DNA of 64,000 nt from Nocardia asteroides. Its GTDB lineage: Bacteria; Actinomycetota; Actinomycetes; Mycobacteriales; Mycobacteriaceae. Below the pieces are notes generated by a model that saw only the letters and a program-made list of their open reading frames with translations, had not been told where the DNA came from and searched no databases. Location: the NCBI RefSeq assembly GCF_021183625.1, contig NZ_CP089214.1:4650001-4714000 (forward strand). Reading direction: 5' to 3'. Positions 16,501 to 22,500 of this stretch are shown piece after piece (position 1 is the stretch's first letter; every line of letters starts with the position of its first letter). Made by a program: the position numbers and the translations under genes.

Positions 16501-19500
16501 CCGGGCTCACCGTCTCCGCGGTCGACTTCGAGACCGCGATCTCGCAGTTCGACCTGCACTGGATGATCGGCGACGCCTACGACCCCGACGGCGCGCCCGC
16601 CGGGATCGGCGGCGTCGTCACCTACGCCACCGCGCTCTTCGACGAGTTCACCGTGCGCGGCTTCGTCGACCGGTTCGTCCGGGTGCTGCGCGCGGTCGCG
16701 CAGGCACCGGAGACGCCGGTCGGCGACCTGCCGCTGCTGCAGCAGCACGAGCGCGACCGGCTGCTGCTCGCCCGCAACGCCACCGCGCACCCGGTGGACC
16801 CGGCGGCCACGCTGGTCTCGCTGCTCGACGCCACCGTCGCGGAGCACCCGGCGGGCACCGCGCTGATCGGCCCCGCGGGCAGCACGCTCGACTACGGCGC
16901 GCTCGGCGCAAGGGTGAACCGGCTGGCCAGGCACCTGATCTCGCTCGGGGTCGGGCCGGAGACCAGGGTGGCGCTCGCGCTGCCGCGCTCGGTGGAGCTG
17001 GTCGTCGCCATGTACGCGGTCTCGGTGGCGGGCGGCGCCTACGTGCCGCTCGACCCCGCGCAGCCCGCGCAGCGCACCGGCCACATCCTGCGCACGGCCG
17101 CCCCGATCTGCGTCCTCACCGACCTGGCCACCGGCTTCAGCACCCCCGAGGCCCCGGTGCTCGTCCTGGACGACCTGCGGCTCGACGGCTACGCCGACGG
17201 CCAGGTCGAGGATGCCGAGCGGCTCGCGCCGCTGCACCCGGCGAACACCGCCTACGTCATCTTCACCTCCGGCTCCACCGGCACCCCCAAGGGCGTCGCG
17301 GTGCCGCACGGCGCCATCGTCAACCAGCTGCTCTGGAAGCGCGCGGAGTTCCGGCTCGGCGCCGAGGACGCGGTGCTGCTCAAGACCGCCGCCACCTTCG
17401 ACCTCTCGGTGTGGGAGTTCTGGTCGGCGGTGGTGTGCGGCGGCTCGCTGGTGATCGCGGACGCCGACGGGCACCGCGACCCCGGCTACCTGAACGAGCT
17501 CATGGCCAGGGAGAAGGTGACCACGCTGCACGTGGTTCCCTCCATGCTGGACGCACTGCTCACCGAGGCCGACGGCAGCCTGCCCGCCTCGCTGCTCCGG
17601 GTGCTCGCCATCGGCGAGGCGCTGCCCGCGGCGGTGGCGCAGCGGTTCCGCCGGGCGAACTCGGCGGAGCTGTTCAACCTGTACGGCCCGACCGAGGCCG
17701 CGGTCTCGATCACCGCGCACCGGGTGACCGGCGCCGACCAGCACGCCGTCTCGATCGGCGACCCGGAGTGGAACTGCCAGGTCTACGTGCTCGACCCGCG
17801 GCTCAACCCGGTGCCGATGGGCGTGGCGGGCGAGCTGTACCTGGCGGGCGCGCAGCTGGCCCGCGGCTACTTCGGCAGGCCGGAGCTGACCGCGGACCGC
17901 TTCGTCGCCAACCCGTTCCGGGCGGGCGACCGGATGTACCGCACCGGTGACCTGGCCGGCTGGAACCCGCTCGGCGAGCTTGAGTACCGCGGCCGCACCG
18001 ACTTCCAGGTGAAGGTGCGCGGCTTCCGGATCGAGCTCGGGGAGATCGAGGCCGCGCTGCTGGAGCAGCCGGATGTGGCGCAGGTGGCCGTGCTGGCCAG
18101 GCCGGGGCCGGACGGCAGCGGCGAGCGGCTGGTCGCCTACCTGGTCGGGAAGGCCCCCGACGTCGAGCGGGTGCGCACCGCGCTCGCCGCCCGGCTGCCC
18201 AGCTACATGGTGCCCGCCGCCTTCGTGCTGCTCGACGCGCTGCCGCTGACCGTGAACGGCAAGCTCGACCGCGCCGCGCTGCCGGAGCCGCAGGCCGAGC
18301 AGGCCGTCTTCCGCGAGCCCGATGGCCGGGCCGAGCTGGTGCTGGCCGAGGTCTTCACCGAGCTCCTCGGGGTCGAGCGGGTCGGCGCGGACGACGACTT
18401 CTTCGCGCTCGGCGGCGACTCCATCGCCTCCATCCAGGTGGTGGCGCGGGCCCGCACCCGCGGCGTGACGATCAGCCCGCGCGAGGTGTTCGAGCACCGG
18501 ACCGTGGCCGCGCTCGCCGCCGCGTCGACCGCCGAGCCGCCGGACGACGGCCTGCTCCCGCTCACCCCGGACGGGCTGCGGCTGCTCGCCGACGCCCCCG
18601 CCGGAATCGAGCTGCGCGCCATCGAGCTCGACGTCCCGGTCGGCACCGCCACCGACCAGGTCTGGGCCGCCGCCGACGGCGTGCTGGCCAGGCACCCCAT
18701 GCTCTCCGCGCGGCTGGTCCGCACCGAGGAGGGCGAGCCCGCCTTCGAGCTGGTGCCGCCGGCCGGCCGGGCCGAGGCGTACTGGCTGTTGGACGCGGCC
18801 GAGGTGGAGCCGGGCGAGTACGACCAGGTGGTCGAGGCCGTTGCCGCGCAGCTGGATCCGGCCGCCGGGGCCAATATCCGGTTCGTGCTGATCACCCCGG
18901 CCCAGCCGGACCAGGGCGGCACGCTGCTCGTGGTCGGCAACGGCCTGGTGCTCGACGACGCCGCCTGGCGGATCGTGGTGGACGAGCTGAGCGCGGTGTG
19001 GTCCGGCGGGCACGCCGCGCCCGCCGTCACCGGTACCGGGGCGGGCGGGCTGGTCCGCGCGCTCGCCGCCCGCGCCGCCGCCCCCGCGACCCTGGCCGAG
19101 CTGGAGTGGTGGCGCGCCGCCGTTCCGCGCGGCGGCCGGCTGTACCCCGGCGACCTGCGCATCCGCGGCAGGCTCTCGGCCCGGATCACCAGGGAGGCCG
19201 CGGGCGCGGTCGCCAGGGTCGCCGACGCCTACCACGCCACCGTGGAGGAGGTGCTGCTCACGGCGCTGGCGCTGGCGCTCGCCGACCCGACCGCGCCGGA
19301 GCAGATCGGCAGCGTCGTCCGGCTCACCGCCGATGCCAGGACCGGCGACCCCGCCGACTTCAGCGGCTCCGGCACCGCCGCCGCCGATTTCGTCGCCGCC
19401 TTCACCACCACCTACCCGCTCGCGCTGCGGCTGACCGGGATCGACTTCGCCGAGGTGCTCGACGGCGGCCCGGCCGCCGGCGTCGCGCTCGGCCTGGTCA

Positions 19501-22500
19501 AGGAGATGTGCCGGGCGGTGCCGGCGGGCGGCGTCGGGTTCGGGCTGCTCCGGCACGCCAACCCCGCCACCGCGGGCGAGATCGCCCGGCTGGACCGCGG
19601 CCTGCTCGGGCTGCGCTACCGCGATCTGCGCCCGGCCCGGGTGCGGGTCGACTCCCCGGTCGACGACCTGGTCCTCGACCTCACCGTCGACGCCACCCCG
19701 GACGGCCTGGTCGCCCGGTTCGACTACGCCGCCGCCGTGCTCGACCTCCCCGACGTGCAGACCTTCGCCGAGCGGTGGGTGCGCGCGCTGGGCGGGCTCG
19801 CCGAGCACGGCAGGCACCCGGAGGCGGGCGGCCACACCCCGTCCGACTTCCCGCTTGTCCCGCTCGACCAGCGCGACGTCACCCGGCTCACCAGGGGCTA
19901 CCCGGAGCTGGTCGACGTCTGGCCGGTGACGCCGCTGCAGTCGGGCATGCTCTTCCACGCGCTGCTCGCCGCCGGCTCGGTGGACGCGTACACCATGCAG
20001 TTCGGGCTGCACCTGACCGGGCCGGTGGACGCCACCCGGCTGCGCGCCGCCGCCGAGCTGGTGCTGGTCCGCTACCCGAACCTGCGGGTCGCCTTCGCCG
20101 AGGACGGCGCGGGCGAGCCGGTGCAGGTGGTGCTGGACGCGGTCCGGCTGCCCTGGCGCTTCGTCGACCTCGGGCACCTGGCCGAGCTCCCGGCGGACGC
20201 CGCGCGGGCGCGGGTGGTCGCGAACGATTTGGCCACCCCGTTCGACATGCACGAGGCGCCGATGCTGCGCTTCACCCTGATCCGGACCGCCGCCGAGCGG
20301 CACCAGCTGCTGGTCACCGCGCACCACATCCTGGTGGACGGCTGGTCGATGCCGCTGCTGCTCCGCGACCTGCTCACGGTGTACGCGCTGGTCGGGCGGG
20401 TGCGGCGGCCGCTGGGGGAGCCGATCGGCTCATACCGCGACTACCTGCTCTGGCTCGCCGCGCAGGACCGCGGCGCCGCGCGCACCGCCTGGCGGGCCGC
20501 GCTGAGCGGGATCGAGGAACCCACCGCGCTGGTGCCCGCGCTCCCGGAGTCCGGGCCGGGCGAGGCCGGGATCGGTGAGGCGGGGATCGGTGAGGCGGGG
20601 ATCGGCGAGGCCGGGTTCACCCTCTCGGTCACCCGCTCCGAGGCGCTGAGCCGGCTCGCCGCCGAGCTCGGCGTCACGGTGAACACCGTCGTACAGGCGG
20701 CGTGGGGGCTGCTCATCGGGCGCAGCACCGACCGGGACGACGTGGTGTTCGGCGCCACCGTCTCCGGCCGGCCGCCGCAGCTGCCGGGGGTGGAGACGCT
20801 GGTCGGGCTGTTCGTGAACACCGTTCCGGTCCGGGTCCGGCTGGAAGCGGGCGCCACGCTGGCCGCGCTGCTTCGCACGCTGCAGCTGGAGCAGGCCGCG
20901 CTGCTCGACCACCACCACGTGGGGCTGGCCGAGATCCAGGAGCTCGCCGGGGTCGACCCGCTCTTCGACACCCTCGTCGTCTTCGAGTCCTTCCCGATCG
21001 ACAAGGCCGCGCTGGAGCGCGCCGGGCTGGAGCAGCCGGGCGGGATCGACGGCATGCACCTGGCCGGGGTCGACGTCGTCAACAACACGCACTACCCGAT
21101 CACCGTCATGGTGGTGCCGGGCAGGCAGCTGCAGGTGACGCTGAAGCACCGCAGGGACGTGGTGAACGACGCCGCGGCCGCGCTGCTCGCCGAGCGCTTC
21201 GCCGCGGTCGTCGACCGCTTCGTGCGCGACCGCAACGCGCGCGTCGCCGAGGTGGAGCTGCTGACCGACGCCGAGCGCGCGGTGCTCGCCGCGGCGAACG
21301 ACACCGAGGTGCCGGAATTCCGGGACGAGGCCACCCTGCTCACGCTCTTCGACGCGCAGGTGGCCCGCACCCCGGACACCCCGGCGGTGATGTACGAGGA
21401 CACCAGGCTCAGCTACAGCGAGCTCGACCTGCTCGCCCGCGCGCTGGCCCAGGTGCTCACCGAGCGCGGCGTCGGGCCGGGCAGCCTGGTCGGCATCGCC
21501 ATGCGCCGCTCGCTGGAGCTGGTCGCCTCGATCTACGCGGTGCTCCGCACCGGCGCCGCCTACGTCCCGATCGACCCGGACCACCCCGCCGAGCGCAGCG
21601 AATACGTGCTGACCAGCGCCGCCCCGCTCTGCGTGCTCACCACCGCGCGGGACGCCTTCACCACCGAGAGCGAGGTCGAGGTGGTCGAGCTGGATTCGCT
21701 CTGGCTGCCCGACCCCGATTCGCTGCAGGCCGAGCCGCCCGCCTCCCCGGCGCTGCCGGACGGCGCCGCCTACGTCATCTACACCTCGGGCTCCACCGGG
21801 CGGCCCAAGGGCGTGGTGATCACGCACCGGCAGATGGTGAACCAGTTCCGCTGGGCGCAGTGGACCTACCCGCACGGCGCGGGCGACCTGGTGCTGCACA
21901 AGACCCCGATCACCTTCGACATCTCCACCTGGGAGCTGTTCTGGCCGCTGCAGACCGGGGCAACGGTGCTGATCGCGGAGCCGGACGGTCACCGCGACCC
22001 CGCCTACCTGCTGCGCGAGCTCACCGAGCGCCGGGTCACGGCGGTGCACTTCGTCCCGTCCATGCTCGCGGCGTTCCTGGACGAGCTCGCCGAGCTGCCG
22101 CGGGTCGAGCTGCCCGCGCTGCGCTGGGTCTTCGCCGCGGGCGAGGCGCTCACCGCCGAGCTCGCGGCCCGCTTCGCCGAGCTGCTGCCGGAGGCGTACC
22201 TGGTGAACTGGTACGGCCCGGCCGAGGCGACGGTGGTCACCGCGTACGCGGTGAGCGGCCGGGTGCGGCGCGGCGGCATCCCGATCGGCGCCCCGGTGGC
22301 GAACACCGAGGCGCTGGTCCTGGATCGGCAGCTGGCGCCGGTGCCCTTCGGCGCCGCGGGCGAGCTGTACATCGCGGGCGTGCAGCTGGCGCGCGGCTAC
22401 GCCGACGCGCCGGGGCTGACCGCGGAGCGTTTCGTGGCGCACGGCGGCGGGCAGCGGCTCTACCGCACCGGCGACGTGGTGCGCTGGCGGCCGGGCGGCG

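Follow-up and report, generated by a model that had tools for sequence, protein, structure and literature searches.

Interface (I) domains of siderophore synthetases are condensation (C)-superfamily domains that position a tailoring enzyme, the X domain of glycopeptide synthetases lies between the last carrier (T) domain and the thioesterase (TE), and module 2 of the nonribosomal peptide synthetase (NRPS) LgrA adds glycine, which makes epimerization pointless there. In the available portions of the papers cited here, the X domain is described as a non-catalytic member of the C/epimerization (E) superfamily, with an altered active-site motif (HRxxxDD in structure 4tx2), that is retained because it recruits other enzymes (PMC11546977), and the E domain of LgrA module 2 is called inactive within a working NRPS (PMC8150014). 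The E domain in module 3 of the glycopeptide synthetases StaB and ComB is likewise regarded as inactive and stands before a C domain that descends from DCL (D donor, L acceptor) domains and has, in that view, switched to L donors; Rausch 2007 proposed that former DCL domains behind lost E domains of glycopeptide synthetases act as LCL (L donor, L acceptor) domains (PMC1894796). Here we describe a related case from a 64,000-nucleotide stretch of the Nocardia asteroides genome (NZ_CP089214.1, positions 4,650,001 to 4,714,000; hereafter the window), in which the synthetase NRPS2 carries a domain, termed E*, with a complete E fold and without the catalytic motifs. Non-catalytic domains of the C/E superfamily are a known kind, of which the genus-wide, E-derived E* clade would be a further variety.

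The best explanation, to which we assign a probability of roughly 0.6, is that E* is a Nocardia-restricted pseudo-epimerase that would not epimerize and would be kept as a non-catalytic docking or scaffold domain. E* would no longer epimerize the residue on T2, the carrier that precedes it, and would serve as a binding or scaffold domain in the manner of the glycopeptide X domain. In NRPS2 the intermediate handed on by T2 would then keep its L configuration and be accepted by a C domain that descends from DCL domains but tolerates an L donor. E* differs from the X domain in its position, since it either separates a T from a C domain or follows the TE as the last domain of the protein. It also differs in descent, as the X domain is placed with LCL domains in the available text of PMC1894796, whereas E* is of E ancestry by the trees described below. 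The StaB and ComB cases are single clusters whose domains are treated there as former E domains (PMC1894796), whereas E* is a selected clade found throughout a genus, also behind TE domains and in proteins without carriers.

An earlier note on this DNA had proposed that both catalytic motifs of the NRPS2 E domain are lost while later ones survive, and the alignments bear this out. VVGNGLVLDDAAWR stands in place of HHxxxDGxxWR and RLTADARTG in place of RLEGHGRE, the residues needed for epimerization (the second His of HHxxxDG and the Glu of EGHGR) are absent, and a later E-type motif is still present as PAGGVGFGLLRH. A third change, missing from that note, is that NYLG reads RYRD. A shifted HHxxxDG motif was sought and none was found; an intact E domain of the same genome aligns with E* column by column around the motif, and phmmer, Foldseek and VIA-align all match the segment to solved E domains. 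The AlphaFold model of E* (pLDDT 91.8, pTM 0.91) has solved E domains as its nearest structures, with TycA PCP-E at Z 34.8 and a root-mean-square deviation of 3.2 over 403 residues in VIA-align, and Foldseek agrees. E* is closer to E structures than to the X domain 4tx2, which has Foldseek rank 49 and is not among the 50 VIA-align matches listed, an absence that excludes nothing.

The motif losses are shared by relatives. Both motifs are absent in 29/29 relatives read in the alignment, and HHxxxD and EGHGR are absent from the E* stretch in all 80 loci of the set examined, which comprises the best 80 of 244 confirmed relatives, all from Nocardia (one of them, the fragment L128, lacks the first motif region). 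Both His residues and the Glu are retained in each of the 29 other Nocardia E domains collected, the Glu motif being spelled EGHGR in 26, ERHGR in two and, in the decaying L194, EGEGR. Outside the cluster, two related Nocardia E domains (L163, L169) have HHLAVDA for HHxxxDG and retain EGHGR. A frameshift, assembly error or misalignment might be suspected in DNA whose high G+C content yields long spurious frames on both strands; the chance of such an artefact is negligible, given a 96% identical E* in the nearest relative among the genomes searched, N. harenae (G061; NZ_BDBH01000001), a continuous frame, the same motifs in independent assemblies and a confident fold.

E* was found in 142 of 150 Nocardia genomes, 140 of which match at E 1e-60 or better; the other two (G074, G103) match in two pieces, and in their loci (L198, L199) an in-frame insertion of roughly 80–90 residues splits E*. 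In a search of 251 genomes of the family, 21 Nocardia genomes match E* at E 4.3e-140 or better, and no score at the E* level occurs in the 230 non-Nocardia genomes, where the best match has 203 bits, the ordinary E level, reached by 74 at the cut-off. A search of 394 genomes of the class returned four Nocardia genomes with at least 531 bits and only 205.5 bits as the best of the other 390; an intact E domain of the window genome scores 205.2 against E*, like that best non-Nocardia match. By these scores the E* clade is restricted to Nocardia within the genomes searched. In a tree of 115 C-superfamily domains, E* groups with E domains (SH-aLRT 100); two script labels in this tree are wrong through domain splitting (an LCL-row C domain named CafterE, and two terminal E domains named C), and the E* rows are unaffected. 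A second, midpoint-rooted tree, of 21 E* and 29 other E domains (50 in all), places every E* in a single clade (100/100) apart from the rest.

E* is under purifying selection. The ratio of nonsynonymous to synonymous substitution rates (dN/dS), calculated pairwise by a Nei-Gojobori script and uncorrected for codon bias, is 0.122 (bootstrap 0.071–0.208) for the NRPS2 E* between the window genome and N. harenae, with the other NRPS2 domains ranging from 0.059 (T3) to 0.351 (A2). The intact E domain of NRPS5 gives 0.145 (0.083–0.258) for the same species pair, so the NRPS2 E* evolves like a working domain. Over 21 pairwise comparisons E* has values of 0.063 to 0.367, and in seven pairs of the carrier-less N. 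carnea group it has 0.063–0.115 and no gaps. Plain decay would mean that drift, or selection for an L residue, removed the E function, that the C domain became less strict and that no new activity took its place. It has parallels in the inactive E domains described in the available text for StaB and ComB (PMC1894796) and for LgrA (PMC8150014), and a separate decay is under way in one Nocardia locus, L194. For E* this account is improbable: selection on E* is about as strong as on intact E, a single clade spans nearly all of the Nocardia genomes, some residues are newly conserved, and E* is retained in carrier-less proteins. The earlier note had pictured a domain merely stripped of function, a view that finds no support in the Nocardia-restricted clade, the purifying selection, the newly conserved residues and the copies outside the T–C slot. 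A clade-wide pseudo-epimerase with a second function is probable, and goes beyond what that note described.

Comparison of 74 E* with 28 intact E domains reveals 26 columns conserved alike, 46 columns conserved in intact E that fall below 90% conservation in E*, seven conserved substitutions, four deletions, and 22 columns that are conserved in E* but have another commonest residue in intact E; when the columns are counted by hand, 3 of 14 switched columns only show where the start of E* was trimmed, and among the 55 gained columns most keep the residue commonest in intact E. Five of the seven conserved substitutions lie at or beside the former catalytic motifs, and Tyr358 of the former NYLG is kept in 63/74 E*, both of which would fit a rebuilt site (Asp263, Arg265, Arg357, Arg359, Asp360, Arg391, Asp393) that runs another reaction or epimerizes via other residues. 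Such new chemistry has little likelihood, as a carrier is missing from 13 of the 80 loci, intact E domains also conserve Asp137 and Arg265, which are thus probably structural, and E* varies at the position where the Glu was lost.

The orthologous slot is readable in six of the eight Nocardia genomes without E*. An intact E domain (HHYAIDG, EGHGR) fills it in five (L190, L191, L192, L193, L195). The sixth, L194 (G059), is a degraded protein whose E domain reads HHYVFDD and EGEGR(E), with long AGSPQVY-type repeats and a branch of 0.36 versus 0.014 in its sister; by these sequence features it is a separate decay in progress in the intact-E lineage. The six slot E domains fall into one clade with the intact E of NRPS5 (100/100). 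Codes of the adenylation (A) domains were read by alignment to GrsA, whose letters were checked against 1amu. The code DIWHFAWVV(K) of the A domain that follows the slot is shared by the E* orthologs read and the five intact-E genomes. Ahead of the slot, the A domain reads DFWNVGMVHK, which we take to be a Thr-like code, in four of the five intact-E genomes and DALFVGGIMK in the fifth; in the E* module the code is DALFVGGI-K in 30 of 49 orthologs read, and the window genome has its own (Table 1). Incorporation of glycine, which would make the death of an E domain trivial, is not supported here, as the E*-module codes differ from the glycine code, which also sets E* apart from LgrA module 2.

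The earlier note had also assigned the C domain behind E* to the type that follows E domains, and the subtype tree agrees, grouping it with those found behind intact E (SH-aLRT 98). C domains after E* and after intact E (47 versus 6 domains) differ at 22 near-fixed positions, at which clade effects are indistinguishable from donor specificity; as to convergence of the C domain towards LCL, some of these positions are LCL-like and others are not. At 19 of the 22 positions, the NRPS4 C domain that follows an E-less carrier has the residue typical of C after E*. It is plausible that the C domain behind E* accepts an L donor, because a C domain of this kind adjoins a carrier in NRPS4 with no E between them, and because LCL action of former DCL domains behind lost E domains is proposed in the available text of PMC1894796. 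It is also plausible, from the sequences compared, that residue 2 of the NRPS2 product stays L, as the earlier note had argued. Peptide stereochemistry is predicted from E domains, and in most Nocardia E* probably should not be read as D. The slot amounts to a natural experiment, since what stands before the related C domains is E* in most Nocardia species, an intact E in others and, in NRPS4, nothing at all, and these variants allow testing of both the change in DCL donor preference and the role of a pseudoenzyme after catalysis is lost.

A T-E*-C module is present in 55 of the 80 loci (two start too late to show the carrier), and GGDS is found in 53/53 carriers seen before an in-module E*, versus 2/190 other carriers. 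E* is at the very end of the open reading frame (ORF) in 9 of the 80 loci, in eight of them behind a TE motif, the ninth being the fragment L128; these terminal copies have no E-type carrier directly before them. The window genome, a single 6.99 Mb contig, has a second E* in such a position, after the TE at the end of NRPS5 and beyond the window (L041 15500-17750; G000:C1:4725500-4727750). It is preceded by a fast-evolving Pro/Ala-rich linker with PPWATPSNGVPA-type repeats (dN/dS 0.660 against N. harenae, with 91 gap columns), and the part of NRPS5 beyond the window also contains the intact E domain (HHYVIDG, EGHGR). The occupied T–C slot, the E-type carrier before every in-module E* whose carrier was seen, and the near-fixed C-domain differences, as might arise if E* and C were passed on together, would all suit a structural spacer, an E-shaped body that T2 and the DCL-type C domain need between them and that binds nothing else. 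A spacer alone is unlikely, since E* also lies at protein ends, mostly behind a TE motif, and in carrier-less proteins, and NRPS4 has the same C type with neither E nor E*.

In further loci the synthetase has degenerated, and those without any carrier extend the case for a docking or scaffold domain. Three of the 80 (L085, L103, L130) are degraded synthetases with E* and no intact A core, HHxxxDG or TE motif; their carrier before E* reads GGDV or GGDI, so that the attachment Ser is gone, and L103 and L130 have three carrier folds each, two with Ser. These carriers were missed by the pattern search and found by the carrier profile and Pfam. Contig ends cut L085, L094 and L112. A further 13 of the 80 loci have no carrier domain by the carrier profile, including L081, which also ends in E*. 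Pfam found no PP-binding domain and no TE in the six of these 13 to which it was applied (L067, L071, L081, L086, L097, L100), compared with 5 and 1 in the control L066, and still recognised degraded A and C domains. The frames of L097 and L081 are open, with low-complexity linkers between domains; L097:3965-14269 is a long NRPS-derived ORF of the carrier-less type. Along the L100/L097 pair, sliding dN/dS is 0.07–0.11 in E* and about 0.3–0.5 in linkers, and the low values across the folded windows indicate that the entire carrier-less protein is maintained, not just E*. Preservation of E* alone in these proteins was considered and rejected, as the pseudo-A and pseudo-C domains are constrained too and linkers inflate the average.

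E* is the one domain found in nearly all versions of the last NRPS protein. A bolder and tentative proposal, which we hold to be rather doubtful as yet, is that the last NRPS of this conserved Nocardia cluster is, in several lineages, giving up synthesis to become a scaffold, with E* as the hub of a second function first assembled in working synthetases. Carriers and catalytic motifs would vanish and disordered linkers grow, while folded pseudo-domains would stay selected. Selected carrier-less proteins derived from an NRPS would be an unusual fate for a megasynthase.

Several observations weigh against a genus-wide, selected docking or scaffold domain. First, E* was not seen in 8 of the 150 Nocardia genomes, although in two of these (G053, G133) the locus is cut by contig ends. 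Second, constraint is uneven: the terminal E* of NRPS5 has a dN/dS of 0.260 between the window genome and N. harenae, values are high in L067/L071 (0.367) and L098/L125 (0.296), and in L066/L073 (0.171 versus 0.150 upstream) and L095/L101 (0.219 versus 0.197 and 0.171) the value for E* is no lower than for the flanks. In L100/L097 the pseudo-A and pseudo-C domains have about 0.07–0.28, so E* is not singled out. Third, E* has no known partner, and the downstream esterase, which looks secreted by eye, is an unlikely one. Finally, the inactivity of E* is read from its sequence.

Table 1. Features of NRPS2 and its neighbours, numbered from the first letter of the window.
Feature	Position	Strand	Basis
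NRPS2, 3456 aa, A-T-C-A-T-E*-C-A-T-TE	13539..23909	+	translation and domain calls
A2 of NRPS2, adenylation domain of the E* module, code DLWHLILVSK	16809..18263 (limits approximate)	+	alignment to GrsA
T2, E-type carrier, LGGDSI (GGDS at 18411-18422)	18342..18524	+	
E*, pseudo-epimerization domain, complete E fold, catalytic motifs gone	18546..19817	+	alignment, structure match, tree
NGLVLDD at the HHxxxDG site	18939..18959	+	alignment with relatives and intact E
TADAR at the EGHGR site; His column is Asp263 (invariant in 74 E*); Arg265 kept	19326..19340	+	
RYRDLR at NYLG and next residues; Arg359 and Asp360 invariant in 74 E*	19614..19631	+	
C domain behind E*, DCL ancestry, intact HHILVDG	19878..21218	+	tree
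A3, code DIWHFAWVVK, common to 52/52 orthologous modules (last position unread in 10)	21309..22793 (limits approximate)	+	
NRPS4 T1 (LGGDSI), then directly a C domain of the E*-associated type, no E between	41511..42980	+	
NRPS5 start; continues to window-equivalent 77750	55254..63998	+	

The surrounding genes resemble a described cluster. A nitronate monooxygenase gene is present at 3291-4337, esterase and enoyl-CoA hydratase genes lie downstream in the window genome, and an epimerase gene was found in L066 only, no search for it having been made in the window genome. Of 74 loci in which 1 kb or more follows the ORF, 68 have an esterase gene that starts no further than 700 nt downstream (tblastn with the PF00756 protein of L066); the six loci without such a gene include N. 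harenae NRPS2 and three from genomes with two E* proteins. A partial scan of neighbouring ORFs found no gene for a P450, the kind of enzyme that the X domain recruits. In a 2020 Nocardia survey, the gene environment of gene cluster family (GCF) 6 is described as invariant, with nitropropane dioxygenase, esterase, enoyl-CoA hydratase, epimerase and metallopeptidase genes around the NRPS genes (PMC7413640, available text); the nitronate monooxygenase, esterase and enoyl-CoA hydratase genes of the window genome would fit it. Komaki 2014 reported a common Nocardia cluster with two TE domains (PMC4035055), and on the available portions of both papers GCF 6 and its cluster 4 are probably the same cluster. 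Those portions do not mention a dead E domain (PMC7413640, PMC4035055), and a literature search, with supplementary files outside its scope, found no report of an E*-like domain or of E* in this cluster.

Within 13539-63998, an A domain opens NRPS2, NRPS3, NRPS4 and NRPS5 alike and all four have a thioesterase motif, which would fit a separate peptide product for each. The window (1-64000) is G+C-rich and contains antisense frames of up to 3724 aa, which nothing marks as genes. NRPS1 ends, at 12550-13509, in a truncated adenylation domain without the A core motif SGSTGxPKG, another pseudo-domain within the window, and NRPS2 starts 29 bases on.

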